Shown here piece by piece: positions 44,431 to 60,588 of a DNA stretch of 64,000 bases. How positions within the stretch are numbered: position 1 is the stretch's first letter; the number at the start of each line of letters is the position of its first letter. Under the pieces are notes generated by a model. That model was not told the DNA's origin. It was given only the letters and a program-made list of their open reading frames with translations, and searched no databases. The stretch is from Alicyclobacillus acidocaldarius subsp. acidocaldarius Tc-4-1 (GTDB lineage Bacteria > Bacillota > Bacilli > Alicyclobacillales > Alicyclobacillaceae), in the NCBI RefSeq assembly GCF_000219875.1, contig NC_017167.1:1096765-1160764 (forward strand), written 5' to 3'. The translations under genes and the position numbers were made by a program.

Positions 44431-44505
44431 GCCACCTTGGCTCAGGGGTAGAGCAGCTCACTCGTAATGAGCAGGTCGTCGGTTCGAATCCGACAGGTGG
44501 CTCCA
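44431..44505 (+). tRNA. tRNA-Thr (anticodon CGT)
   Basis: 75 nt with CCA. Acceptor GCCACCT/AGGTGGC, anticodon loop CTCGTAA (CGT), T arm GTCGG-TTCGAAT-CCGAC. Its last 45 bases (44461-44505) are repeated exactly at 60544-60588, which marks it as the attachment site of a genomic island. The island side keeps the full tRNA. Confidence 0.97.
44461..44505 (+). repeat. Left attachment repeat (3' end of tRNA-Thr)
   Basis: 45-bp direct repeat, identical to 60544-60588, running from the anticodon loop to the CCA end. This is the classic target of tyrosine-integrase islands. Confidence 0.88.
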
Positions 44506-44532
44506 TAAGAAGCCGCAGGCGCGGCAAGGGAG

Positions 44533-44575
44533 CGAGGCTCCGAATCCGAATGGGTCGGGGCCTCGATTTGTATTT
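44533..44575 (+). terminator. Terminator after tRNA-Thr inside the island edge
   Basis: CGAGGCTCCGA (44533-44543) pairs with TCGGGGCCTCG (44555-44565), 11 bp with one wobble, and ATTTGTATTT follows. It now ends the tRNA operon. The region 44576-44897 carries no recognisable gene. Confidence 0.7.
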
Positions 44576-44897
44576 GGATAGCTTATGGAGTCTGCCCACG
44601 TCTCAAATCGCTTCGCTCTAGGGGCTTCGTGTCCGGGATGGTGAATGGTCACAATTGTGAGCGGTTGCGAGACACTACCCTGAATCCGTGACAGGGCCGA
44701 TGGAAAGAGGCTGATGTGTGTTCTCGCAAGCCCCTTCACTGCGATTTCACGGATGTACATTCAATTTTCTTAGGGATTGTGAATATCGGTTGGAGCCAGT
44801 GCGGCGAAAAGGCAGATGTCCCCCCTGGACTCGTGAATGGTTGGGTTCGGTTTCCATGTCAGGTCATATGCAGTGTCTTTGCTCGACACAGTTCACG

Positions 44898-46250
44898 TTA
44901 CGCAAAGGCCAAGTACAATCGCCGAAATGCCGGGAGCCATCGATTCCCGTACCCCAATTTCAGCTTGGTCTGTCTGGCGTGTCGCACCATCTTCGCAGCC
45001 AGTGTCATCAGGTTCTGAATCACAGTCCGGATCCGGCGACGTTCTGCCTTTTTTCGTAGCGGCGCATCATTTCGCTTCAGACTCTCCTGGCCGATCACTC
45101 GCAGCAGATTGTACGCCACGCATACAAAGTGCAATACCAAGTTGTTCGTGGCGAATTTACCCGAGGGCAGCCGCTCGGCGTCCAGATCCGTCTTGATTTC
45201 GCTGTGGAACTGTTCCATCACGGCGTGGTCGTGATACAGGCGAATGATCACAGCCGGGTCATCCGGCAGTGAGGTCCAGTAGGCGCTGACCTCAATGTCC
45301 GGTACCAATAAGATTTGGCCGTCGGCCGTCATGGTCCGTTCGATAACTTCGAACACCATGCGAACTGGTTCGGATACACCCTTGACGGGACACATCAGCG
45401 AACCATGATATACCTTCTTGCCGGGACGAGGTTCATGACATGTCCCGTGTCGCTGGGCAATCACAAGCCAGGCCTCGGGGCTCTCCTTTCGCAAGTTGCG
45501 CTTGATGATGAACTCGGCCCTGCTGTCCTGGGAGCGACACACGGCGATGTTTTCTGCACTGTCATTGCCGGCATCCAGACGAACCAGAAGCGGGAGGTCC
45601 GTCACCTGCCTTGCATACTGAATACTCTCCCGCAGGAAAGTCGACGTGCCCTTTTGTACGTGGGTACTGCCTTCACGCAACTGGACATTGACCACGTAGC
45701 CCTCTTGGCCAAGGTAAGCAAAGATGGGAGCATATCCGTCGTGCCCCTTGTATGTACGGGACACGCCTTCCTTCTTCGTGCCGGAATTATCAAAGGGACT
45801 GACGTCGATATCCAGCGGGATGTAAGTTCGACGCTCTGCAGGCACGCCCAGTTCAATCGGATGCAGAGTTACATCGAGGGCTCTCAGGAGCCTTGCGGAC
45901 TCTTCCCGGAGAATGGACTCCCAGCCGGATTTTCCGGCAACCATGTCCAAACGCTGGCGCAGCGTCGGGCTCGAAGGCACGTTGTCTACTTGCAGTGCGA
46001 TCATGAAAAACTCGTCATCTCGAAACGCTTCGATGTGGTCGAAGTCGGTCTTGCCTTGGCAAAGCAGCCCGATGTATGAGTATGCCACGTCCCGGTTTGA
46101 AATATCCGGTTTGCCCATACCAGGCAGGCGGGTCTGATTCAACCGCTCGCCGATTCTGGTTTTATCAAGCAACACGCCGACAAGGGTCATTCCCGAATGC
46201 GTGACGATGACTTCATCGGATTCTTCAATGATGAAACGCAAGTGGTTCAC
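44898..46250 (-). CDS. IS1380-family transposase
   Basis: 450-residue DDE transposase (IS4 superfamily, IS1380 type). Recognisable blocks: RTYIPLDIDVSPFDNSGTKK (first Asp), LLVRLDAGNDSAENI (second Asp) and HDHAVMEQFHSEIKTDLDAERLPS with the terminal Glu and the family's FHSEIKTDL signature. Open throughout with GTG 46250 as apparent start. The element's exact ends were not settled; the right end may be near CTACAGG at 46301-46307. It lies between the tRNA operon and the defence genes, read away from the latter. Confidence 0.9.
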   Translation of the reverse strand: MNHLRFIIEESDEVIVTHSGMTLVGVLLDKTRIGERLNQTRLPGMGKPDISNRDVAYSYIGLLCQGKTDFDHIEAFRDDEFFMIALQVDNVPSSPTLRQRLDMVAGKSGWESILREESARLLRALDVTLHPIELGVPAERRTYIPLDIDVSPFDNSGTKKEGVSRTYKGHDGYAPIFAYLGQEGYVVNVQLREGSTHVQKGTSTFLRESIQYARQVTDLPLLVRLDAGNDSAENIAVCRSQDSRAEFIIKRNLRKESPEAWLVIAQRHGTCHEPRPGKKVYHGSLMCPVKGVSEPVRMVFEVIERTMTADGQILLVPDIEVSAYWTSLPDDPAVIIRLYHDHAVMEQFHSEIKTDLDAERLPSGKFATNNLVLHFVCVAYNLLRVIGQESLKRNDAPLRKKAERRRIRTVIQNLMTLAAKMVRHARQTKLKLGYGNRWLPAFRRLYLAFA

Positions 46251-46485
46251 CCCGATGGTGAAGAGGGATTGAATACAGCCGATATCCGAACTATCTCAAT
46301 TCTACAGGACCAACCACGAGCGCTTCAGCAATTTTCGCACCTACTCGTCACGGATTCAGGACTACTTTACACTAGGAACTTGTGGCAAATTACTTTGTGG
46401 AGAATTGCAGCGATGGTTCATGTAAATTCGCAAATCGCTTAGGACGAGGTTCGACTCTTGAAGTGACGGTCTAAGGAAGGAGATA

Positions 46486-46608
46486 GTGAATCTGATGTGG
46501 CGGTTTTCTGATGCGTTCCGTCGGTGGCTATGTGTGGGATGGATGACGCCGTTCCTCGCGCCATTGACATCCGGATTGACACTGCTCCCACGAGAAAGCA
46601 ATACATAG
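46486..46608 (+). CDS. Possible 40-residue leader peptide before the helicase gene
   Basis: GTG 46486 follows AAGGAAGGAGATA, one of the best ribosome sites in the island, and opens a 40-codon frame (MNLMWRFSDAFRRWLCVGWM, then TPFLAPLTSGLTLLPRESNT). It ends 18 bp before the helicase start. The product would be hydrophobic with four Trp. It could be a leader peptide, a small protein or the stub of a lost gene; no family is recognised. Confidence 0.4.
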   Translation: MNLMWRFSDAFRRWLCVGWMTPFLAPLTSGLTLLPRESNT

Positions 46609-46626
46609 AAGATGGGGGGATAAGGG

Positions 46627-49600
46627 TTGCTTCGACTGGAACACATCAAAAAGGATGCCGTAGTGGAAGGACTTGTCCCCCATGAAGCGGTGAGGATTCT
46701 CAGTGCGGAGCCGATTGGTCCGGATGCTGTGCACGTGATGTTTCGAACGGCAAGCGGGACGCTGCAGGAACAAACTCTGTTCCGTAGTCATGAACCATCC
46801 CTTCGTTTGGCGGAGGCGGGGTTGCCGTGGTCGTTCGAAGCCTATGGAGAGGACTTCAAGCTGGCGGCTGAGGCATACCGAATTCATGTCGCCCACCTGT
46901 TCGATCCGATGATGGCCGTGCACACGTCGAATGTTCAGCCGCTTCCGCATCAGATTACGGCGGTCTACGAGTCGATGCTTCCGCGCCAGCCTTTGCGCTT
47001 TGTGCTCGCTGACGATCCCGGCGCTGGAAAAACCATCATGGCCGGGTTGTACATACGAGAACTGATGATCCGGGCGGATGCGGTACGGATTCTCATTATC
47101 GCGCCCGGCAGTCTTGTCGAACAGTGGCAGGATGAGCTGTACGAGAAATTTGATCTCGAATTTGAGTTGTTTTCACGCGAGATGGAGCAGTTGAGCCGCA
47201 CGGGAAACCCGTTTGAGGAACGGGATCGCCTCATCGCAAGGCTCGACCAACTCAGCCGCAACGATTCCCTGCTCGAGAAGTTGGGGCGTACGCGCTGGGA
47301 TCTGGTTGTCGTCGATGAGGCGCACAAGATGTCCGCCAGTTGGTACGGGAACAAAGTGAACGAGACCAAACGGTTCAAGCTTGGCAAGCTGGTCGGTAGC
47401 ATCACGCGCCATTTTTTGCTCATGACGGCGACACCGCACAATGGGCGGGAGGAGGACTTTCAACTCTTCCTTTCCTTGCTGGACTCGGATCGATTTTATG
47501 GAAAATTCCGCGATGGCGCGCATCAGGTTGACGTCTCGGACCTGATGCGGCGCATGGTGAAAGAAGAGCTTGTTAAGTTCGATGGAACGCCATTGTTCCC
47601 CGAACGGCGCGCGGAGACCATCTACTACGAACTGTCAGATCTCGAGGCGGCATTGTACCAGCAAGTGACGGAATACGTGCGCGAGGAGATGAATCGAGCG
47701 GACAGGCTGGAGGTTGGGAGAAAGGGCACGGTGGGCTTTGCCTTGACCACCTTGCAGAGAAGGCTGGCATCCAGCCCAGAGGCCATTTACCAGTCGCTCA
47801 AGCGCCGGCGCGAGCGCCTGCAGCGGCAACTCGATGAAGCGAAGATCGAGCACCGGGGCCGACTCGCGTGGGTTCAGTTGCACGATGTGCCAGATGACAT
47901 TTATGAATCCGACGAGGAACTACCGGGTGGGGAATACGAAGAGTTAGAGGACGAGATCGCGTCCCAGGCAACGGCGGCCCAGACCATCGCCGAGCTGGAG
48001 CAGGAGATCCGCACGTTGGAACGGCTGGAGGCGCTCGCTTACCAACTGGTCCTGTCCAACCAGGACTCGAAGTGGACACAGCTGTCGACGCTGCTGCACG
48101 ACGAACCGGAGATGCGGGATAAGTCAGGCAACCGTCGCAAGCTTATCATCTTCACGGAGCATCGTGACACGCTGAACTATCTGCAGCGCAAAATGGAAGG
48201 CTTTCTAGGGCGTCCCGATGCCATCGTCGCGATTCACGGCGGCACCAAGCGGGACGAACGCCGAAAGATCCAGGAGAAGTTCTGGCACGATCCCGATACG
48301 CTGATTCTCTTGGCGACCGACGCGGCTGGAGAAGGCGTCAATCTTCAGAATGCGAACCTGCTCATCAACTACGACCTGCCGTGGAACCCAAATCGTCTGG
48401 AACAACGGTTCGGGCGCATTCACCGCATTGGCCAGACGGAAGTCTGCTACATGTGGAATCTGGTGGCGTCGAAAACCCGTGAGGGTGAGGTTTTTCAACG
48501 CCTGTTTGAAAAGCTGAAGGTGGAACGCGAGGCGTTGCAAGGCCGGGTCTTTGACATCCTCGGCCAAGTGTTTGAGGAAAAGCCGCTCAAGGAGCTGCTC
48601 ATCGAAGCCATCCGACGGGGCGATGATCCAGAAGTGCGCGCACGGCTTGAGCGTGAGGTCGATGGCGCGCTGGATCGGGAACATCTCAAAGCCATCCTGG
48701 AGCGTAACGCGCTCTGCGAAGAAGTGATGAGTCCGGAGCGCCTGTATCACGTGAAAGAGGAAATGGAGAAGGCGGAGGCGAGACGGCTTCATCCGTATTT
48801 CATCCGTGCGTTCTTTCGTGAAGCATTCGCGCGACTTGGCGGTGAATTGAAAGAGCGGGAACGGGAGCGTTACGAAATCACCCACGTCCCCGCCGTCATC
48901 CGCGAACGGGATCGGCAGATCAGCGGGCGGGATCGGGGTAATCGCAAGCCCGTCTTAAAACGCTACGAGCGCGTTTGCTTCGAACGCGAGTTAGTCCGAG
49001 TTCCCCACAAACCTGTGGCGGCACTTCTTCACACCGGTCACCCGTTGATGCAAGCTGTGACCGATTTGACTCTGGAACGCGGGCGAACTGCGCTCAGGCA
49101 AGGTGCAATTCTCGTAGACGACCACGACGACAGTGACCGTCCCTACATGTTGTTTTTGATAGAACACGCGGTTCGGGAGCAGCCTTTGGGAGGCCAGACG
49201 CGTGACGTTTCTCGTCGCGTTCAGTTTGTTGCCGTGTATGAGAATGGTGAGGTCGCGCTAAAGGGCTATGCACCACACCTGGATCTGCGCGGGGCCACGG
49301 ACGAGGAACGCCATCTGGTGCGAGAAATCCTGCGTCAGCCGTGGTTGTCGGGCGATCTCGACGCCTTGGCGCAAAAGCACGCTATTGCGCTCATTGGAGG
49401 TCCGCATTATCAGGAAATCCAAGAACGTAGGAACCGTGAAGTTACCCGTGTGAGGGACGAGGTTCACAAGCGGTTGTCGAGTGAAATCCAGTATTGGGTA
49501 GACCGGCACGAGAAGTTGAAGGATGACATTGCCGCCGGAAAACAGCCGCGCATGCAACTCGAGAACGTGCGGCGTATCATTGAGGACTTGACGGCACGAT

Positions 49601-50139
49601 TGGAACAGCGTAAGAGGGAACTGGAAGCGATGCGCCACTTGATTTCGGCAACGCCAGTTGTCGTCGGTGGTGCACTGGTCATTCCGGCGGGATTCTTGAC
49701 AAGACTGCGCGGTGAGGCTCCTTCTGCGGACGTCGTAAGCCGAGCGCGCATCGAGCGTGTCGCGATGGAAGCTGTCCTGGAAGCGGAACGGCGGATGGGC
49801 CACGAAGTCATCGACGTTTCGGCCGCGAAATGTGGTTGGGACATCACGGCGCGAATCCGGAAGCCTGACGGGACTATTGCTGCAGAGCGGCATATCGAGG
49901 TGAAAGGCCGCGCCAAGGGCCAGGACACGATTACCGTCACCCGCAACGAGATGATGTACGCGCTCAATCAGGGGGACAAGTTTCTGCTGGCCATTGTGAT
50001 CGTGGATGGCGACCGTGTGGACGGCCCTTACTACATCCGCAATCCGTTCCGTGAGCGTCCAGACTGGGCGGAAGTCAGCAAGACGTTTGACTTGAGGCTC
50101 CTCCTGGAGCGTGCGGTACCTGTGGAGCAGTCCTTGTAA
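46627..50139 (+). CDS. SNF2-type helicase with C-terminal DUF3883 domain (defence-associated)
   Basis: 1170-residue SF2 helicase of the HepA/SNF2 class. Walker [20 protein letters not shown] (about residue 130), DEAH box VVVDEAHKM (230-233), motif [13 protein letters not shown], then the helicase C half with [28 protein letters not shown] and [10 protein letters not shown]. Near the C-terminus a DUF3883 domain shows GWDITARI and IEVKGRAKG with Glu1091 and Lys1093, a PD-(D/E)xK-like nuclease pattern. TTG 46627 is the apparent start. It is followed 22 bp later by the DUF1156 methylase and then a DUF499 ATPase, a gene trio known from defence islands and related to BREX-type systems. Intact. Confidence 0.88.
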
Positions 50140-50161
50140 CACAGAGAGGGGTGCTAAGGTT

Positions 50162-51326
50162 GTGCCGAAAGTAAGAGCGCCGAAGAAGCTCATTGAAGTG
50201 GCACTGCCGCTTGATGATATTAATGCCGAAGCTGCGAGGGAGAAATCCATTCGTCACGGCCATCCTTCCACTCTGCATCTGTGGTGGGCGCGTCGTCCCT
50301 TGGCGGCAGCACGGGCGGTTCTGTTTGCACAGTTGGTGAATGATCCCGGCGGTGAACGCGGCTACAAACCTGGCATGACGAAAGAACAGGCGCAAAGAGA
50401 ACGCGAACGTCTGTTCGATATCATGCGCCGCTTGGTGAAGTGGGAGAACTCAAACAACGAAGAAGTCCTGCGCGAAGCTCGTGAAGAGATCTTGAAGAGC
50501 TGGCGGGAGACTTGTGAGATGAACAAGGGGTTGCCGGGATTTGATCCGGACAAGCTGCCCGCTTTTCACGATCCGTTTGCGGGCGGCGGTTCTATCCCGC
50601 TTGAGGCGCAACGTTTAGGACTGCAAGCCTACGCATCGGACCTGAATCCGGTGGCCGTTTTGATCAACAAGGCGCTGATCGAAATTCCACCGAAGTTTGC
50701 GGGAAGGCCGCCTGTCAATCCAGAGGCGCGGTCCAAAATGGGACTGCTCGAAGAGGAGTGCAAAGGCGCGCGTGGATTGGCGGAGGACATTCGATACTAC
50801 GGCAAATGGATGCGCGACGAAGCATTCAAGCGCATCGGTCACCTGTATCCGCAGGTGGAATTGCCACCCGAACATGGGGGTGGCAAGGCCACGGTCATCG
50901 CATGGCTTTGGGCACGGACGGTCAAGAGTCCGAATCCGGCGTACAGTCATGTGGATGTACCGTTGATTAGCTCCTTTTGGCTTTCTAAGAAGAAGGGAAA
51001 AGAGGTGTTTATTCAACCTGTCGTCAATGGAGATAGATATTCATTTACCGTCGTGTCTGGTTTAGCAACAGGAAACTTGAAAGAGATCGATGCTGGAACT
51101 ACATGGGTGGCTGAGAATGGAAGAAAGATAAAGGCGACATTCAAATGCATTGTATCTGGAAGTCCGATTAAAGCTGACTACATCGACGAGCAGGCGAATT
51201 GCGGTAAGATGGGGTTCCGGCTAATGGCCGTTGTGGTGCAGGGGAGGCACGGTCGAATTTATTTGGCACCAGATGTTATCGACGTAGACTCCCTGCAACG
51301 AGAAATACACACCTATTTTTGTAGAG
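50162..51326 (+). pseudogene. DUF1156 DNA adenine methylase, 5' part (interrupted by IS)
   Basis: Start GTG 50162. The DUF1156 N-terminus [20 protein letters not shown], then [20 protein letters not shown], is unmistakable, and the SAM-binding motif I is [18 protein letters not shown] (about residue 137). The frame runs into the IS1634-type element at 51327 after TYFCR. Removing the element and one AGAG restores a 971-residue gene with 53290-55040, a normal length for the family. The catalytic DPPY motif is in the downstream part, so this half alone cannot methylate. Confidence 0.93.
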
Positions 51327-53285
51327 ACCCACATTTCGCGCCCGTTTTTGGGCTTGTGTTCATTTTCGACAGGAATTTTGATTCCACACGTGGAATTGGA
51401 TAGCCCGTCGTATCTTCGTGCGGGAGGCTTTCCAGTTGTTCGGTCCAGTTCGCTCGTATGTCATGGGGCCTGCGCCCGTTTTAGCCAGACTGATCGACGA
51501 ATTGAAGTGGGTAGAGATCATCGACGAGTTCGTGCCACGTCCGGATAGCAAGCTGTCCATCGGGTTGCGTACCAAGGCGTTGCTAGTTAATATCGGCACG
51601 AACCGCGAAGCCCTCTACCGAGTGGAGGAGTTCTACGCGCAACGGGATGTGGAAGTCCTGCTTGGAAACGGCGTCTCCGCAGACGATCTCCATGATGACG
51701 CTTTGGCCCGGGCTCTGGATGCCTTGTACGACGCAGGTCTCGAGGCATTATACGCGCGTATCGCCCTACACACGCTACGCAGACTCCGGGTGCTCAGCGA
51801 TTCCAACGAACTCATCCCCATCCATGCGGATACCACGTCGCTCTCTGTGACAGGCGAGTACCTGGACCAAACAGCGTTTCGCATTGACCGGGGATTCTCC
51901 AAGGACCACCGGCCTGATCTCAAGCAAATTGTGTTTGGACTTTGCACCGTCCATGGTCTGGGGCTATGCGCGAACGTCAACCCTGGGAACTTGGACGATC
52001 ACACATGGAATTTCGAGAACATCCAGCAACTCCTGAGCCAGCTCGATGAGGAGACGCGAAAGAGAAGCGTCTACGTCGCGGACGCGGCGTTGGTGACGAA
52101 GGACAACCTTGAGCTTTTGGCGGAGGAAGACATCCATTTCATCTCACGACTGCCGGGGACGTATAAGCTGTCCGAGGACCTGAAGAGAGCGGCATGGGAG
52201 AAAGAAAACAGCTGGAAAGAAGTCGGTCGGCTCGCTGAGGCGGAAGACAGCGCCCATTACAGGATCCAGGCCTTCCGTCGCACGCTGTACGGGCGAACGT
52301 ATCGATTCGTGGTGGTGCGCTCCTCCAGCCTGGATACCCGGAAGGAGCGCAAGCTCGAAGAGGTGCTCAAGCGTGAGAAGGCTGCGCTGGAGAAAGCGGC
52401 CAAGGCGATGAACCAAAACGTCTACAGTTGTGAACAAGATGCACAGATGGCCATGCAGACCTTCATGCACGAACACCGTGCCACTTTGCATCCCATCTCC
52501 GCCCGCATATGTGCCGAGCAGGTGCAGGAAAAACGCGCGCGCCGCGGTCGCCCGCGCAAAGATGACCCGCCACCGCCGGTGCATACACAGTACCGTGTGG
52601 AAGTGGAGATCTTACCGCCTTCTGAGGAGCGGGTTCAGCAGTGGCGAGAGAAGGAAGCGACGTTTGTGCTCATCACCGACATCCGCGATGATCAGCGTGT
52701 GTCAGATGAACAGATCCTCCGCCTGTATAAGGAACAACACGAGGTGGAGGCGCGTTTTCGATATCTGAAAAGCCCGTATCACGTGGGTCCCATCTACCTG
52801 CATAAGCCGACACGGGTGAAAGCGTTCGGTTTCGTCATGCTGTTATCCCTACTCTTGTATAGTGTATTGGAATATCTCATCCGAGAGAAGATGAAACGGG
52901 AAACGGAACCGCTCATGCTGCCAGGCAAACGAAAGAGTTTTCGTCCAACAGGGTTGGCCATCCTCGAGATGCTGGATGGAATGACGACCGTGCACATGCA
53001 GGTCGGCGACACGTGGCAGCGAGTACCTGCAACGCCTCATAATCCTCAGATCATGAGGGTTCTTAAGCTGCTGAACATGGACCTGAGCATCTACACGGAA
53101 GCGCAAAAGACGGCTTGATCAACGTTTGGGGCCGTGTGCACAGGGTTTCCAAAACTGAACATTTCTCAAAAAGATCGCGCTTTCGATATCCTACACCCTT
53201 CCAGTCCCACAGTCGTCGGACGCTCAGATGGCTACCTCGCTCGAGTTTCCAGCTAAGTTTCTGTCGCGCGGCGCGAAATGTGGGT
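51327..53285 (+). mobile_element. IS1634-family element
   Basis: 1959 bp. Terminal inverted repeats ACCCACATTTCGCGCC (left from 51327, right ending 53285). A 4-bp direct repeat AGAG flanks it (51323-51326 and 53286-53289). It splits the DUF1156 gene. A 55-bp relic of the same left end is at 7611-7665. Confidence 0.93.
51418..53118 (+). CDS. IS1634-family transposase
   Basis: 566-residue IS4-superfamily transposase. Catalytic blocks: ELIPIHADTTSLSVTG (first Asp), KRSVYVADAALVTKDNLELL (second Asp) and the YREK-type C-terminal block RLYKEQHEVEARFRYLKSP with the Glu, followed by VGPIYLHKPTRVKAFGFV, typical of IS1634. The start is GTG 51418; no strong SD. The gene is full length with no frameshift, so the element may be mobile. 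Confidence 0.93.
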   Translation: MREAFQLFGPVRSYVMGPAPVLARLIDELKWVEIIDEFVPRPDSKLSIGLRTKALLVNIGTNREALYRVEEFYAQRDVEVLLGNGVSADDLHDDALARALDALYDAGLEALYARIALHTLRRLRVLSDSNELIPIHADTTSLSVTGEYLDQTAFRIDRGFSKDHRPDLKQIVFGLCTVHGLGLCANVNPGNLDDHTWNFENIQQLLSQLDEETRKRSVYVADAALVTKDNLELLAEEDIHFISRLPGTYKLSEDLKRAAWEKENSWKEVGRLAEAEDSAHYRIQAFRRTLYGRTYRFVVVRSSSLDTRKERKLEEVLKREKAALEKAAKAMNQNVYSCEQDAQMAMQTFMHEHRATLHPISARICAEQVQEKRARRGRPRKDDPPPPVHTQYRVEVEILPPSEERVQQWREKEATFVLITDIRDDQRVSDEQILRLYKEQHEVEARFRYLKSPYHVGPIYLHKPTRVKAFGFVMLLSLLLYSVLEYLIREKMKRETEPLMLPGKRKSFRPTGLAILEMLDGMTTVHMQVGDTWQRVPATPHNPQIMRVLKLLNMDLSIYTEAQKTA

Positions 53286-53289
53286 AGAG

Positions 53290-55040
53290 AAGATTTTATA
53301 GAAAAGTTACCGCATCAAACCTGCAGAGGGACATTTGCCAGTAACGCACAAGGAAGAAGTTATGGTTTTGTCGAGTTCAAGGATTACTTTACACACAGAC
53401 AGCTGATCGCTCTGAGTACCTTTTCTGATCTCGTTTCAGAAGCACGGAAAAAGGTGTACGAGGATGCACGTAACAGCGGGATGCCGGACGATGGAATAGG
53501 ACTTGAGGATGGTGGTTCAGGTGCGACGGCATATGCGGATGCGGTGGCGGTGTATTTGGCTCTTGCGGTTGATAAATTGGCAGATAGGCTGTCTTCAATA
53601 GCAAGTTGGGATTCATCAAGAGAGAACATTCGTAACACGTTCTCCAGACAAGCCATCCCCATGGTATGGGATTTTGCTGAGGCGAATCCTTTTTCGGACT
53701 CGACGGGAAACTGGATGGCCATGGTAGATTGGGTGTGGGAAGCAGTAGAGAATGCTCCGATGCAAGCAATAGCGGGTGAAGCTCATATTGCGAATGCGCA
53801 GACGCAAACCCTAAGTACAGGCAAAATCGTTTCGACGGATCCTCCGTACTACGACAATATTGGTTACGCGGATCTTTCAGACTTCTTCTATGTATGGCTT
53901 CGACGATCCTTGCACACAGTTCTTCCGGGACTTTTTGCAACGGTTGCTGTCCCGAAGGATGAAGAGTTGGTTGCAACGCCGTATCGCCACGGCACCCGGG
54001 AAGAGGCCAATTCCTTCTTCTTGCAAGGCATGTCAAACGCCATGGACCAATTGGTCCGTTCTGCGCACCCTGCGTTTCCAGTTACGATATATTACGCCTT
54101 TAAGCAGTCTGATACCGATCAGGATGGAACTTCGTCGATCGGTTGGATCGCATTTCTAGAGGCGCTGCTTAGGGCCGGGTTCTCTATCACGGGGACTTGG
54201 CCTCTACGTACTGAGCTGACGAACCGTATCCTTGGGCAGGACAGCAATGCACTCGCTTCTTCCATTGTGATTGTGTGCCGGAAAAGATCGAGTGACGCTG
54301 AAAAGGTATCACGAAGGCATTTTCTCCGAGAGCTCAATACCGTAATCCCCGATGCACTTTCGGAGATGGTGAACGGGGGCACGGGTCGGTCGCCTATCGC
54401 CGCAGTCGATCTCCAACAAGCTGCGATTGGCCCCGGTATGGCCGTATTCTCCAAATACGCCGCAGTGCTTGAAGCAGATGGGTCACCGATGACGGTGAAG
54501 ACGGCTTTACAGTTAATTAATCGAATTGTTGACTCTTATTTGCATGCCTCCGATGCGGAGGTCGACGCCAACACGTTATTTTGCATAAACTGGTTCGACC
54601 AATTCGGATGGTCAGAGGCTGACTTCGGGCGTGCCGACGTCTTGGCGCGTGCCAAGGGGACGAGTGTGGATGCGGTACGCGCTGGGGATGTTCTGACTGC
54701 GGGTCATGGCAAAGTCCGATTGCTGCGGTGGCAGGAGTATCCGTCCGATTGGAGGCCGGGCCAGGAGCATGACACACCCGTATGGGAGGCGCTCCATCAT
54801 CTGATCCGTGCACTCCAACTGGAAGGTGAGCAGACTGCGGGAGAGCTGCTTGCGGGCATGTACGGTCTTTCCGAGTCTATCCGCTCATTGGCGTATCGGC
54901 TCTATACATTGTGTGAGCGCAAGGGATGGGCGGAAGAGGCAAGGGCATACAACGAACTGATTGCGAGTTGGGATGCCATTGCCGAAGTGGCTCAAAAGAC
55001 TGGGCTGTCGGGTTCTCAATTAACTCTGGATGTGGAATAG
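53290..55040 (+). pseudogene. DUF1156 DNA adenine methylase, 3' part
   Basis: Continuation of the gene at 50162-51326, in frame once the IS and one AGAG are removed (TYFCREDFIEKLPHQT across the joint). Holds the catalytic motif IV as STDPPYYDNIGYADLSDFFY and a C-terminal region ending LTLDVE. An open frame from 53115 passes through the IS end but has no plausible SD, so this half is probably not made. It ends 15 bp before the DUF499 start. Confidence 0.92.
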
Positions 55041-55055
55041 GACGGAGTGATGATC

Positions 55056-56404
55056 ATGCTTCTCAAGCCTTGGCGCGAGGTGGCCGTGCCGCATGAGGAT
55101 GTGTTGCGCGGGACCTTTCAGCAGTCAGAGTTTGCGGCCGATTTGACACGTGTTCACAATGGCACGGCGACGGATGAATATCGGGATCCGAAGCTGTTTT
55201 ACGCTCGGACCTACATCACCGAAGGTATGCGTTTGCTTCTTGACTCCATCGTGCGTCGTCTGTGTGGCATTGGCGGAGAGCCAGTGGTGCAGCTCCAGAC
55301 AGCGTTCGGAGGAGGCAAGACCCATACCCTGCTGGCCGTGTATCACCTGGCCAAAGGAGAAGTGCCTTTACACGAGTTGCATGGCGTCGGTCCTATCGTC
55401 GACGCCGTCGGTGTCGTGGAGGTTCCAAAAGCCAGGGTTGTGGTGCTTGACGGCAATCAATTGTCTCCGAACCAGCCGCAAATGCGCGATGGACAGCCTG
55501 TACGGACGATGTGGGGGGAACTGGCGTGGCAGCTTGGTACGTGGGCCGCGTATGAGCGAATCAGGAAATCCGACGAATCGGGGACGTCCCCAGGCAAGGG
55601 AGTGCTGTCGGCACTCCTAGAGGAACACGCTCCTTGCGTCATTCTCATGGACGAGCTCGTGGCGTACCTTCGCCAATTCGAAGAGGGCCGTCAGTATACG
55701 GGCGGAACCTTCGAATCGAACTTGTCCTTCATTCAAGCGCTGACGGAGGCGGTAAAGGCCGTCCCGAACGCGATGGTGCTTGCATCGTTGCCCGAATCCG
55801 AGCTCGAGCTCGGAGGTCCGCGTGCTCAGTTGACCCTCGACAGCTTGGAGAAGATATTCGGCCGAGTACAGGCCCTTTGGAAACCGGTTGGTACCGAAGA
55901 AGCATTCGAGATTGTTCGGCGCCGACTATTTTCCGCGATCGCGGACGAGCGGGCGATGGAAGAAACCTGCCAAGCGTACATGCAGATGTACCTGCAGCAT
56001 GCCGGTGAGTTTCCACCGGAGACACAGGAAAGTCGGTATTTGGAACGCTTGCGGGCTTCATATCCGATTCACCCAGCGGTCTTCGACGCCTTGTACAACG
56101 TTTGGTCGTCAATGGATAAATTCCAGCGGACACGCGGTGTCCTGCGCCTGATGGCAAAGGCGATTCACAAACTGTGGGCGGACGGCAACGCATCGCCGAT
56201 GATCCAACCTGCTGATTTGCCCATCGACTTTGCGGACGTGCGCAACGACCTCTTGTACTATCTTCCGCAGGGATGGGACCCTGTCGTAGAACGGGATGTG
56301 GACGGTCCAAGGTCAGAGACCGCAAGACTCGACCGTGATACCCGATTTGGTGCGGTTCAAGCAGCAAGGCGCGTTGCACGCACGATTTTTCTCAATACGG
56401 CACC
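55056..56404 (+). pseudogene. DUF499 ATPase, truncated by IS21
   Basis: About 450 residues of a protein class that normally exceeds 900. Walker A is [18 protein letters not shown] (GGGKT at 85-89), and [15 protein letters not shown] looks like Walker B. The N-terminus [20 protein letters not shown] is typical for DUF499. ATG 55056 has CGGAG 8 nt upstream. IS21 starts at 56405 and the rest of the gene does not reappear beyond it, so the 3' half has been deleted. With the helicase and DUF1156 genes it formed one operon. Confidence 0.9.
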
Positions 56405-56479
56405 TGTCAACAGCGGATTAAAACTCCCCAAAAAAATCGCGCCCGATTCCTCAAAAACAGCGGATTCGATTCCCCAAAA

Positions 56480-57295
56480 TCATCGCGATTCGTTCCCCAC
56501 ACATGTGTTCGCTTCGTCTCTTGTTGCCGAGAATCCGTGCGTAACGCCAGCTCGCAGCTTGTCTTTCATGCGGTAACTGTTGCCACGGATATTCACGGTC
56601 GTTGCATGATGCAACAAACGGTCGAGTAAGGCGGCAGCCAGGACCTGGTCGCCAAAGAGCGTTCCCCAATTCGTGAAACTCGTGTTGGACGTGATGAGCA
56701 ACGACCCTCGCTCGTACCTCTCTGAGACCAGCCGGAAAAAGTTCGCGGCGTCGAGCGCGTCAAGAGGCAAGTAGCCCACCTCATCACAGATCAGAATCTT
56801 TGGCTGCGTATAGACTCGGAGCCGCCTGTCCAGCCGCCCTTCTTGGTAGGCTCGGCGTAAATCGCTCACGAGTTTCTGCATGGTGACGAAGTAGACGCTC
56901 ATCCGCTGGCGAATCGCCTCCATGCCGAGGGCCACGGCCAAATGCGTCTTTCCCACCCCTGGAGGCCCTAGGAAAATCACGTTTCCGCATTCTTGGACAA
57001 ACGTTAGCGTTGCGAGCTCTCGGATTTGGCGCTCATCCACAGATGGCTGGAACGAGAAGTCGAAGTCGGCGAGTGTCTTGTGGAACGGGAAGTTCGCCAA
57101 GCGCAGCCGAGCCTGCATGGCCCGGCTGTGCCGCTCCTCCTGCTCAGCCTCCAGCAAACGCTGGAGAAATGCGACATAGGTCGCCTCTTGCCCGGCGGCC
57201 CACTCCACGCACGCCGGCAAGACGGCAGCAGCTCGCTTCAAGCCCAGGTCCAACAGTTGTTCCTCGACCTGAGCGACCACCAATGCCTCGCTCAT
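56480..57295 (-). CDS. istB: IS21 helper ATPase IstB
   Basis: 271-residue AAA+ ATPase. Walker [20 protein letters not shown], Walker [14 protein letters not shown], and the DnaC-like [18 protein letters not shown] segment are present. It overlaps istA by 4 nt (start ATG 57295). IstB prepares target DNA and activates the IstA transposase. The C-terminus reads into the terminal repeats of the element. Intact. Confidence 0.95.
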
Positions 57296-58533
57296 TGCAC
57301 ATGACCTCCCATGGCGATCTGTTCATAGACCCCAAGCTCGCGCTGCTCCACGTCCGGATCGACTTGCCATCCCGCTGTCTTACCCCGCGCTGGATTCGCG
57401 GTGTCCCGAGGGAGGTTCTTGTAGTGCTCGGGATCCGTGGAGATTTGATGCTTGCCGGACAGCACGCAATGTTCTGCAATCACCTGTCCGCCGTACTCGA
57501 TTTGCAGGCGGCCAGACTCGAATTCCCGAACCAGGACCGTGTGGCCCACGTACCGCCAGGGAACAGTGTACAAGTTCGTGTTCCAGGAGACCCGGCAGTC
57601 ACTCATCACCTTCCGAAGACCTGCACAAGCCAACATATATGGGGTGGCCGGTAGCGGTTGCAGCTTCTCAGCTTGAAACCGCACGATGGGCTGTTCATGT
57701 GTCGTTCCGTGGATGCGGACGTTGGCGACGTGATCGCGCCACCACGCGACCTGTCGGTTCAAATCCGCTTCGTCCACAAAGGCAACTGGCCAGAAGTTGT
57801 CCCGGATATAGCGAATGGGCCGTTCTACCTTGCCTTTGGTCTGGCTCCGGCGAGGCCGACATGCCTTGGGTACGAATCCGTAGAACTTGGCAAAATCGAG
57901 ATACGCCGGTTGCCAGTCCACGTGACCCTGACCGTCATTGGCGACGACCAAAGACGAACAGTTGTCGCTGAGAATCACCCGAGGCACACCGCCAAAGAAC
58001 TCCAGCGCGTTGCGAAGGGCCTGAAGGATGTGCAGTTGGTCTGCCGCTTTGATAAACTCAACGTAGAGCATGCGGGAGTAGGCGAGTACCATGGCGAAGG
58101 CCCAAATCGTTCGTCGCTGACCGTGCGAATCGTAGTAGGGGAAGGCCCCCAAGTCGATCTGGGCTTGTTCACCAGGGTCCGACTCATAGCGTTCCGTGGC
58201 CTTGGCAGAGACCACCGGGCGAAGGGGCTTCATGAACTCTCGCAGGACGGTGATCCCGCCGGTATAGCCCTGCTCCCGAATCTCTCGTAGAATTCGTACA
58301 GCGTTGAGCACACCAAGTTGCATGCGCTGCTTCACGTAATCTTTGTAGGGCTCCAGCTTGGAACCTTTCTTTCGCTCCCCACGCGACGCTCTTTCGCCCT
58401 GCTTCTCCTCCACCGATGAATTCAGTGCACTGCGAATGGTCTTTCGGTCATAGCCGAATCTTCTGGCCAGCTCCGAGATGCTGACGCCTGCCTCGTAGAG
58501 TTGCCTGATTTCCATCCTCTCGTCCTCCCTCAT
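57292..58533 (-). CDS. istA: IS21 transposase IstA
   Basis: 413-residue DDE transposase. N-terminal helix-turn-helix SISELARRFGYDRKTIRSAL; integrase core with AQIDLGAFPYYDSHG (first Asp), VILSDNCSSLVV (second Asp) and the Glu in SQTKGKVERPIRYIRDNF (the KGKVER motif). ATG 58533 has GGGAGGT 8 nt upstream; ATG 58515 is another well-placed start. Open throughout. It reads toward istB. Confidence 0.94.
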   Translation of the reverse strand: MREDERMEIRQLYEAGVSISELARRFGYDRKTIRSALNSSVEEKQGERASRGERKKGSKLEPYKDYVKQRMQLGVLNAVRILREIREQGYTGGITVLREFMKPLRPVVSAKATERYESDPGEQAQIDLGAFPYYDSHGQRRTIWAFAMVLAYSRMLYVEFIKAADQLHILQALRNALEFFGGVPRVILSDNCSSLVVANDGQGHVDWQPAYLDFAKFYGFVPKACRPRRSQTKGKVERPIRYIRDNFWPVAFVDEADLNRQVAWWRDHVANVRIHGTTHEQPIVRFQAEKLQPLPATPYMLACAGLRKVMSDCRVSWNTNLYTVPWRYVGHTVLVREFESGRLQIEYGGQVIAEHCVLSGKHQISTDPEHYKNLPRDTANPARGKTAGWQVDPDVEQRELGVYEQIAMGGHVQ

Positions 58534-58691
58534 AACGGGCACCTCCCATGAATGGATGACAGGTGCCACGATTCGACATGGGGTGTGGGGAATTCATCCC
58601 GATGATTTTGAGGAATTGAGGCCGATGATCTTGGGGAATTCTCATCCGATGTTATTGGGGATTTTACAACCGATGTTGACAAGGACTCCCG

Positions 58692-59898
58692 AACCCGGTC
58701 GCTGAGATACACTCGCTCCCGGGTTTCCTTCTTTCCCAGACACGCGGTTTTCAATGGGCAGTTTTGGCAATCGGTTTGCGAAAAGTAGTACAGAAACCCG
58801 CCTTTGAAAGGCGTTTTTCCGCTCGTCTCCTTCCGTCCTGGGCACACAAAGGTGTCTTTCCGAGGCCGATAACGGAATCGTGTCTTCGCCAGGACACCGG
58901 CGTTTCGTGAAGGAATCTCCGGCTTTGCGCCATGGCTGCGAATGGCGTTTCGATTCCCGATCGAGTCATAGCCTTTGTCGGCCACCACCGAAGTAAACCG
59001 ATGCCCTTTGCGGACGTCCTGTTCAAGCAGTTCTGGCAGGTGCTCTCCTTCGTGTTCGTTCCCGCTCAATATTTGAACAGAAGTGACAATCCCAGAGGCA
59101 TCCATGGACGCGTGGGCTTTGTAACCAAAAAACGGAGTCCGTTTGTTTTTGAATCCCCACCTGCCGTCCGGGTCGATCAAGTTGGTCACACCCCCTTCCC
59201 CCGACAGAATCTGTGCCACCGTGTCCCGCAAAGACTGCAATTCCGTATGGCCCGCAGCATCAACCGCGTCGAGCAAGTGTTGGGTCAACTTCTCCTCTTT
59301 GGCCAGGTCCGGCTCGGATGCATTCGTGTACTCTTCTTGTAGCTGGTTCGCCGTCTCCGCAGCGGTCTTGGCATCTATGCGCTCCCAAGCACGGAACAGA
59401 CGCCGCCGTGCAGCACGGAGTAACTCCTTCCGGTTTTGTACGGCTGCATTCGCCGAAATCACCGTGGCATCCACACACTGCCGTTTCCCTTCAAGAAGCC
59501 CCTTTTGGCGGGCCTGTTCCACGATGCGGTCCAATAGCCGGGCGCATCGTTCAGGTCCCAGTCGGCGGCGGAACACGACCAGGGTGGAGTCGTCAGGGGT
59601 ATCGTCATCCAGAGAAAAGTGGGCAAAAGGCACGATACAACAGGTTGTACCGCAGCTCCTCTGCAACCCGTACGTCTGACAGGTTGTAGAAGTACGCGAG
59701 AAACAGCACACGCAGGAGCTGTTCAGGCGCATAGGCAGGACGGCCATGATGGAGACTATACAGATCGCGGGTTTCTTCTTCCACGAAAGAAAAGTCGATA
59801 TGTTGGTCAATGGCAAGAAGAATGTGATTCTCCGGCAACAGCTTTCGAATCAACCAGTCATCCCATAGCGAACGTGAATCCGGGAAGCGCGTGAGCAT
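58692..59898 (-). pseudogene. IS1182-like transposase, frameshifted and 3'-truncated
   Basis: Begins MLTRFPDSRSLWDDWLIRKL, continues DFSFVEEETRDLYSLHHGRP, then breaks at 59625-59628, where removing one A (T on the coding strand) restores YRAFAHFSLDDDTPDDSTLV. Catalytic blocks follow: QCVDATVISANAAVQN, FFGYKAHASMDASGIV, VVADKGYDSIGNRN and the zinc-finger-like CQNCPLKTACLG. It ends in the IS21 end after RVYLSDRVRESL. The frameshift is a single homopolymer base. Confidence 0.85.
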
Positions 59899-59903
59899 GA
59901 GGA

Positions 59904-60236
59904 TCAGTCCTCCAGCATCAGACGGCGATTGTACTCGCCCAGTTTCTGTAGCGCCTCTCGCGCGGCGCGAAAACGCTCAACCCCAGTGCGTACGGCATCC
60001 ACTTTGTCGGCGGGGACGTGGCAGGTACGCGTCCGGCCATTCTCCGACCACGTCAGCAGGTAGTACGGCCCGTGTTTTTGCCCGGAATGGCAGATGCAAT
60101 TGGGTTTGCCACAAGTGCGGTAGGTTTCGACAAGTGAGCCAGCGATCGCTCCATCGAGATGAGCGAGCAAGTGTTGCTGTTGACGATTTCGATGTAGGAC
60201 GAGGATGCTTCTTTTAGACAAAGGGATCACCACCAA
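59904..60236 (-). CDS. DUF6788 protein (IS passenger)
   Basis: 110 residues with the family core SLVETYRTCGKPNCICHSGQ followed by KHGPYYLLTWSENGRTRTCH. The C-x3-P-x-C-x-C cluster suggests metal binding. The start is TTG 60236 with a weak SD. The stop lies 5 bp before the transposase start, so the two are co-transcribed. Proteins of this family are commonly found beside IS transposases; their role in transposition is unknown. Confidence 0.75.
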   Translation of the reverse strand: MVVIPLSKRSILVLHRNRQQQHLLAHLDGAIAGSLVETYRTCGKPNCICHSGQKHGPYYLLTWSENGRTRTCHVPADKVDAVRTGVERFRAAREALQKLGEYNRRLMLED

Positions 60237-60304
60237 TCCGATGTGTTATACACATATAAGAATACCGTGAAATCGCCCAATGAACAATGACTTTTTCAGA
60301 GCTC

Positions 60305-60327
60305 TCGTTTCAATCCGCTGTTGACAG
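60305..60327 (-). mobile_element. Relic of an IS21 end, inverted relative to 56405
   Basis: On the minus strand TGTCAACAGCGGATT (60327-60313) equals the first 15 bases of the IS21 element at 56405, and the next five differ by one base. It stands directly beside the outer end of the IS1182-type element. A second IS21 copy in inverted orientation once ended here and was lost. Confidence 0.65.
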
Positions 60328-60543
60328 ATTGACTAATGCAGTTTTTAACGATTTGGCCGAGTAAGGGGCTATCAACATATCATGTTTGAGATTTGGGTGT
60401 CACTTTGGGAGTCAGCTCATCGAAAATCGTCTTTGCTCAGGTCCACTCTCCGCAAAGCACAAGTGCCGAAATCCCAAGCAGGACAAGGCTTTTCGGACCT
60501 GAGCACAACTCGGCGGTACTCCACGAAATAGGGTATTTTGACT
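60328..60543. other. Island right edge without recognisable gene
   Basis: 216 bp between the IS21 relic and the right attachment repeat. Frames are short on both strands, and no integrase, promoter or RNA is recognised. Confidence 0.5.
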
Positions 60544-60588
60544 CTCGTAATGAGCAGGTCGTCGGTTCGAATCCGACAGGTGGCTCCA
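60544..60588 (+). repeat. Right attachment repeat (partial tRNA-Thr)
   Basis: 45 bp identical to 44461-44505, covering anticodon loop, T arm and 3' acceptor with CCA. The 5' half of the tRNA is missing, so it is not a gene. Marks the right end of the island. Confidence 0.9.

Follow-up and report, generated by a model that had tools for sequence, protein, structure and literature searches.

An apparently inactivated Hma defence-type island at a tRNA-Thr gene of Alicyclobacillus acidocaldarius Tc-4-1

The DNA analyzed here was a stretch of 64,000 nucleotides from the genome of Alicyclobacillus acidocaldarius subsp. acidocaldarius Tc-4-1 (contig NC_017167.1, positions 1,096,765 to 1,160,764), hereafter called the window. 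It carried three adjacent genes of the Hma system, hmaA, hmaB and hmaC in this order and all on the plus strand, within an island at a tRNA-Thr gene (Table 1). The genes were identified from the list of open reading frames of the window by profile scans with PADLOC, Pfam and NCBIfam, and the tRNAs were located by ARAGORN. A first-pass annotation had described a same-strand run of a SNF2 helicase, a DUF1156 methylase and a DUF499 ATPase in which only the helicase was intact. This description was borne out: the three families lay on the plus strand at the positions given there, hmaA ran through 1170 codons without an internal stop, hmaB was split and half of hmaC was gone. The end of the region proposed there (46486-56404) was exact, coinciding with the point at which the end of an IS21 insertion sequence (IS) began, but its start was set 141 bases too early.

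The HmaA protein (1170 amino acids) covered positions 1-1175 of the 1176 of the PADLOC HmaA profile with a score of 1927 bits, compared with 409 bits for the best DrmD model and 164 bits for RapA; the grouping with unrelated repair enzymes that would have spoken against the first-pass annotation was not seen. Pfam recognized SNF2-rel_dom, Helicase_C and NOV_C (residues 1042-1134, E 1.3e-21), the last of which we take to be the former DUF3883 and PD-(D/E)XK-like. The motifs GAGKT (residue 132), DEAH (230), GWDI (1070) and IEVKG (1090) were present, IEVKG being the nuclease-like motif reported earlier. The N-terminus, where Type-1 BREX-related (BR; BREX, bacteriophage exclusion) helicases have a TUDOR domain, gave no match in the Pfam scan. 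The length and start of hmaA were equal to those in two sister genomes. Two relatives served for most comparisons: G002, taken as A. acidocaldarius DSM 446, a type strain used in the laboratory and regarded as non-pathogenic (PMC3035248), and G010, Alicyclobacillus mali NBRC 102425.

The two pieces of hmaB matched different PADLOC models, PDLC00660 for the 5' piece (967 positions) and PDLC00661 for the 3' piece (973 positions). The DPFAGGG motif was found with DUF1156 in the first piece and DPPYYDN in the second, and Pfam assigned DUF1156 and MethyltransfD12 to the protein. The DPPY motif marks amino-methylases; together with the PADLOC description it points to a predicted adenine methylation by HmaB. 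The gene was unsplit in G002. Only the 5' half of hmaC remained, and a search of the whole 3.12-Mb genome revealed no further HmaC piece, while HmaC was complete in both G002 and G010. Single-sequence searches at E <= 0.1 returned no solved structure for either HmaB or HmaC. The profile scores exclude chance matches of the three families.

Table 1. Positions in the window of the Hma genes, the insertion sequences and the borders of the island
Feature	Position	Strand	Basis or detail
tRNA-Thr (CGT), integration site, last of a tRNA-Ser/Met/Thr cluster	44431..44505	+	ARAGORN
Left end repeat (attL-like), 45-bp 3' end of tRNA-Thr	44461..44505	+	Exact repeat
IS1380 between the tRNA and hmaA (transposase 44898-46250)	44679..46360	-	Inverted repeats, NCBIfam, 5-bp duplication ACTAC
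hmaA, SNF2 helicase with C-terminal NOV_C domain, intact	46627..50139	+	PADLOC, Pfam, motifs
hmaB 5' fragment, DUF1156 and first methylase motif	50159..51326	+	PADLOC HmaB 4-386/967; start inferred from the G002 protein
IS1634 inside hmaB (transposase 51418-53118)	51327..53285	+	16-bp terminal inverted repeats, 4-bp duplication AGAG
hmaB 3' fragment with DPPY methylase motif	53286..55040	+	PADLOC HmaB 409-973/973
hmaC 5' fragment, AAA+ ATPase half of DUF499	55047..56404	+	PADLOC HmaC 1-454/941
IS21 abutting the broken hmaC end (istB 56480-57295, istA 57292-58569)	~56405..58681	-	
Truncated IS1182, missing its IS21-side end	58684..~60308	-	
21-bp remnant right after the IS1182 end	60307..60327		20/21 match to the reversed left end of IS21
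Right arm of the island	60358..60543		Aligns with the G010 right arm despite different cargo, not with G002
Right end repeat (attR-like), 45-bp copy of the tRNA-Thr 3' end	60544..60588	+	Exact repeat

The IS1634 element was inserted within the variable centre of hmaB, and the genome held two further full-length copies that were 100% identical to it. Two other full-length copies were also found for IS21, at 99%. The two other copies of IS1182 whose left sides were read (L070 and L071) continued with shared sequence where the window had the IS21 end. A deletion running from hmaC to the IS21 end, the mechanism of which we infer, explains the lost half of HmaC; the IS21/IS1182 event apparently removed the island up to its last ~230 bp. 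Because the insertion sequences were near-identical to other genomic copies, recent damage is favoured, and the damage to the window copy was apparently recent. We infer that the system is most likely off in this strain, and the order of the events is likewise putative.

Further observations were made on the mobile elements. The IS21-IS1182 junction occurred twice in the genome (window 56401-60308 and G000:C1:1412732-1416627) with differing left flanks, as if the pair had moved or recombined as a unit. The 21-bp remnant was perhaps left over from another IS21. Ten other near-full-length copies were recorded for IS1380, and a consensus scan of positions 44500-46750 found no promoter-like site between this element and hmaA, which is weak evidence. 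The PADLOC model PDLC02630, labelled DrmD, matched the IS21 ATPase IstB (56480-57295, minus strand) at E 2.2e-58. This match was rejected as a sign of DISARM (defence island system associated with restriction-modification) since the protein was IstB_IS21 by Pfam; the model itself may have been made from transposition proteins and might report DISARM parts that are not there.

The island measured 16.1 kb between the exact 45-bp repeats. HmaC was detected at E <= 1e-100 in three of the 15 genomes of the genus (the window genome, G002 and G010), in each of them at the same tRNA-Ser/Met/Thr cluster and with the repeat present a second time. At E <= 0.001 there were four genomes of the 15; the fourth, as well as a second copy in G010, represented a more distant DUF499 family. 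The site of G002 contained the whole hmaABC in the same order, followed by genes for SIR2, HerA and a transposase. In G010 the genes were distributed over two contigs bearing the same two end repeats, hmaA on one and hmaBC on the other with the break inside hmaB, and were followed by the cyclase and a four-transmembrane (4TM) effector of CBASS (cyclic-oligonucleotide-based anti-phage signalling system). The same site was examined in seven other relatives, all of which had one repeat. In G008 the right-flank genes began ~0.7 kb after it, which makes this an empty site, and in G014 the first right-flank gene followed after ~1.9 kb; in G001, G004, G009, G011 and G012 no right-flank gene of the window island was present in the stretch examined. 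The locus is a tRNA-integrated island, with repeats at both borders and an empty site in a relative, and no integrase of its own was detected in it. New here are the Hma copy in an island bounded by tRNA-Thr 3'-end repeats and the finding of the same site whole, split or empty in relatives. The earlier proposal of a BREX-related defence-type operon, inactivated here and fuller in relatives, held at this site, as did its use as a natural knock-out, the broken window copy standing against those of G002 and G010. That proposal had not included the island, its repeats, the upstream insertion sequence, the genome-wide loss of half of hmaC or the divergence of the HmaB centre.

The tRNA-Thr site was also observed to be a defence hotspot in which the second cargo changes, SIR2 with HerA in G002 (L026 17402-20000) and CBASS in G010 (L028 13010-14955). 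The second DUF499 system of G010 (L029 1484-12659) consisted of DUF499-DUF7744, a DUF7680 protein, a DUF1156 methylase and a SNF2 helicase, and a similar DUF499 and helicase were carried by contig G008:C61.

The three families were found together widely beyond the genus, so that the other result that would have spoken against the first-pass annotation, a lack of co-occurrence elsewhere, did not arise either. A genome scan found 476 HmaA relatives, of which 80 loci were kept; at least 6.5 kb of sequence followed hmaA in 56 of them. In 48 of the 56, hmaB and hmaC followed hmaA in order and on the same strand. In the other eight hmaB was further away and hmaC was not detected in the stretch examined, and none of the 56 was without hmaB. 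The methylase gene was visible in 10 of the 24 shorter loci. The order A-B-C was likewise kept in G002 and G052. At the level of the order, HmaC was present at E <= 1e-100 in 5 of 59 genomes: the three of the genus, G052, and G026, which had hmaC and the end of hmaB, with no hmaA on its 9.7-kb contig. No HmaC relative was found among 50,697 phage records at E <= 1e-10. PglZ (PF08665), suggested earlier as a possible partner, was absent from the window genome, G002 and G010 and present in 2 of the 15 genomes of the genus; tblastn with one distant genus query gave none at the 80 HmaA loci, a weak negative.

All ten plasmid regions examined, out of 108 records with HmaC relatives, carried the three families. 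In one the helicase was split and lay on the other strand; in another, Rhodococcus plasmid pNAPH (L109 4227-8466), an ISL3 element cut hmaB near its 3' end while hmaA and hmaC were annotated as whole, a second natural break of hmaB. In some plasmids the Hma genes were not contiguous. In Rhizobium rhizogenes (L115 4097-6074) hmaA and hmaB were separated by genes for an AAA ATPase and an HNH nuclease, which may form a Septu-like pair; a Thermus plasmid (L111 3059-8466) had Fic protein, helix-turn-helix (HTH) and sigma-factor genes among the Hma genes, and another (L112 6990-8490) had HicB and HTH genes there. The plasmid collection also held NZ_AP026896.1 (H1), a 4.9-Mb Aeromonas caviae record that is probably a chromosome.

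The synonymous divergence (dS) of hmaA was 0.231 between the window and G002, 0.229 between the window and G010, and 0.119 between G002 and G010. Two upstream chromosomal genes had similar dS values of 0.17-0.25, so hmaA may have descended with the chromosome. Transfer of the entire island among the three sister strains was considered first, since HmaA was ~98% identical and the right-flank lipoprotein only 49-57% identical, and it was dropped because the two upstream genes were equally close. A comparison of hmaA between G002 and G010 was mosaic, with 99-100% identity in about ten consecutive windows and 91-97% elsewhere, which suggests that some exchange may have occurred. The ratio of nonsynonymous to synonymous divergence (dN/dS) of hmaA was 0.036-0.044. 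For the other genes, counts only were obtained of nonsynonymous to synonymous changes specific to the window and to the others: 6:24 and 12:76 for the hmaC fragment, 5:18 and 8:51 for the hmaB N part, and 44:82 and 25:84 for the hmaB C half. The excess in the C half was set aside as a sign of decay because this region was divergent in all three strains.

The divergence was concentrated in the centre of HmaB. With the cells of two columns left out, alignment columns 300-449 were 34-53% identical between strains, compared with 89-98% in the first 200 columns, and the DNA identity of the centre fell to 47-56%. The first homologous block of hmaB stopped abruptly near nucleotides 815-870 in both comparisons. 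The dS values were 0.25-0.43 for the hmaB N part, 0.53-0.91 for its C half and 0.25-0.33 for the hmaC N part. On the compared sequences, hmaA ranks as the most constant, followed by hmaC and the ends of hmaB, and the hmaB centre as the least. A similar pattern was recorded in Rhodococcus plasmids. Four of the 108 plasmid records were compared; three of them (L106, L109 and L110) were 96-97% identical in HmaA, 90-96% in HmaC and 71-76% in HmaB, where columns 300-699 were 47-70% identical and the first 200 columns 89-94%. The fourth, L107, was ~81% identical in HmaA and less informative. In Type-1 BR systems the target-recognition insert sits in the methylase core, between the two motif halves (PMC12839542; this and the other papers are cited from the accessible parts of their text). 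The HmaB centre is probably the target-recognition part. HmaC of Rhodococcus also had a variable stretch near its C-terminus; this region of Type-1 BR proteins was described as a hypervariable RRM domain (PMC12839542).

We proposed that the locus is a decayed Hma island at tRNA-Thr, that its whole form resembles a restriction-modification system whose specificity is set by the HmaB centre, and that it is off in the window strain. This is considered highly probable. HmaB would mark self DNA by methylating adenine within a motif that its central target-recognition insert reads; HmaC, an AAA+ ATPase, would assemble on DNA or scan it; and HmaA, in which a SNF2 motor is joined to a PD-(D/E)XK-like nuclease, would attack unmarked DNA. 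A replaced HmaB centre would re-aim the machine with its motor and ATPase nearly constant. In the window strain, the splitting of hmaB by IS1634 and the removal of the hmaC half by the IS21/IS1182 event would have turned the system off. Marking, assembly or scanning, and destruction of unmarked DNA belong to a published proposal (PMC12839542), and the mechanism appears consistent with the domains seen. To this we add, in view of the great diversity of its centre, that HmaB probably directs the attack as well, a role held by PglX in BREX. The truncated hmaB of pNAPH agrees with a system in which loss of HmaB disarms the machine and does not unleash it; alternatively, the truncated HmaB might still work.

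Several observations weigh against this proposal. No decay was detected in hmaA, where nonsynonymous to synonymous changes were 15:115 for those specific to the window and 14:86 for the other two (Fisher p = 0.69). Such an intact, unrelaxed gene would be compatible with a remaining function of HmaA; otherwise the damage would have to be recent. A weaker divergence of hmaB extended beyond the expected insert, with 62-84% DNA identity between G002 and the window over much of the C half, so that not all of the HmaB difference would be a clean cassette swap. Between G002 and G010, dS was 0.38 for the hmaB N part and 0.33 for the hmaC N part, as against 0.12 for hmaA; the hmaB of G010 was read from two contig ends. 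No tyrosine or serine recombinase (PF00589, PF00239) was found inside any of the three islands, and the readable literature reported no test of the full three-gene set.

It was also considered that the island is not dead and that HmaA, acting on its own as a helicase-nuclease, continues to protect the cell and is intact for that reason. It would then be kept by selection and attack some invading DNA while sparing the unmethylated host, with a self-recognition independent of HmaB methylation. The uninterrupted gene under unrelaxed selection agrees with this, and antiphage activity of an HmaA-type helicase-nuclease was confirmed in a 2024 study, as reported by PMC12839542. However, damage by insertions near-identical to other copies may be too recent to have left signs of decay, IS1380 lies between the tRNA and hmaA with no promoter-like site after it in the consensus scan, and hmaB accompanied hmaA, closely or further off, in all 56 relatives with enough downstream sequence. 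Such a solitary role was judged quite improbable. It is hardly credible that the locus is an incomplete BREX or DISARM system and not a separate one: HmaA matches DrmD and BrxH models, and the published architecture links to Type-3 BREX (PMC12839542), but the three islands stand in genomes without PglZ, the NCBIfam DrmD score of 385.6 bits is below the curated cut-off of 610 and far from the score of the HmaA model, and the genes after hmaC differ between G002 and G010 and belong to neither system. On these grounds, the absence of PglZ from the window genome and the DrmD score under the cut-off, the identities as BREX and as DISARM were ruled out.

A further explanation is that HmaB differs only through an older or faster-evolving hmaB and not through an exchanged centre. 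An ancient allele could look alike, the divergence fades gradually into the C half, and even the conserved N part of hmaB exceeds hmaA in dS (0.12-0.23). However, the C half far exceeds both the adjacent hmaA and the upstream chromosomal genes in dS. The first homologous block also comes to a sudden end in both comparisons, and the central dip recurs in the Rhodococcus plasmids. We therefore regarded a merely old or fast hmaB as unlikely, though worth keeping in view, and retained the exchange of the HmaB centre.

The system itself is known. What makes this copy interesting is the comparison that the sister strains offer by nature, together with the claim about HmaB. The mechanism of Hma in print, as far as readable, rests mostly on comparative genomics. 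One chromosomal site in related thermophiles now presents the system whole (G002), over two contigs (G010), broken by insertion sequences (the window) and as an empty site (G008). The near-constant HmaA with differing HmaB centres in two unrelated lineages leads to a testable claim, namely that HmaB acts as the subunit conferring specificity in Hma. Titles and abstract starts revealed no publication on this locus.

On sequence evidence, the locus is a decayed member of Hma, named in PADLOC with HmaA, HmaB and HmaC (Payne et al. 2021, PMC8565338) and called a Type-1 BR system in 2026 (PMC12839542). The stand-alone three-gene form, described at first as poorly characterized, has a name, a proposed mechanism and, according to PMC12839542, one experimental study of its helicase-nuclease. 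The window shares with Hma all three families, their order and strand; HmaA is complete, HmaB is in two pieces, and HmaC is incomplete, for which reason the copy is a decayed member and not a working one. HmaB was called a 5-methylcytosine (m5C) methylase in PMC8565338, in contrast to the adenine methylation indicated here. With Type-1 BR systems (PMC12839542) it shares the DUF499 ATPase, the DUF1156 methylase, a predicted N6-methylase with a probable nested target-recognition domain (TRD), and the SNF2 helicase with a C-terminal PD-(D/E)XK nuclease domain, the latter seen here as NOV_C with GWDI and IEVKG; the difference is that the window copy is inactivated. An N-terminal HEPN domain, present in 1370 of 2446 Type-1 taxa (PMC12839542), was not found on the G002 HmaC in the Pfam scan.

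The PLD-helicase/DUF1156/DUF499 trio of NCBIfam, taken by inference as Type-2 BR, follows the same three-family logic. It was rejected as the identity of the locus, as HmaA has NOV_C and not PLD, and the three scores (173, 125 and 194) were far below the cut-offs of 1100, 1000 and 1200. BrxC (DUF6079) gave no match, only DUF499 being matched at E <= 0.001. Type I BREX differs in having PglZ, absent here, and in a TRD that is C-terminal and not nested in the methylase core (PMC12839542). The likeness lies in the methylase: methylation and phage targeting in BREX both depend on PglX (PMC11341690), and HmaB would probably set self-marking and targeting in the same manner. If true, this specificity role would tie Hma to the BREX methylase PglX.

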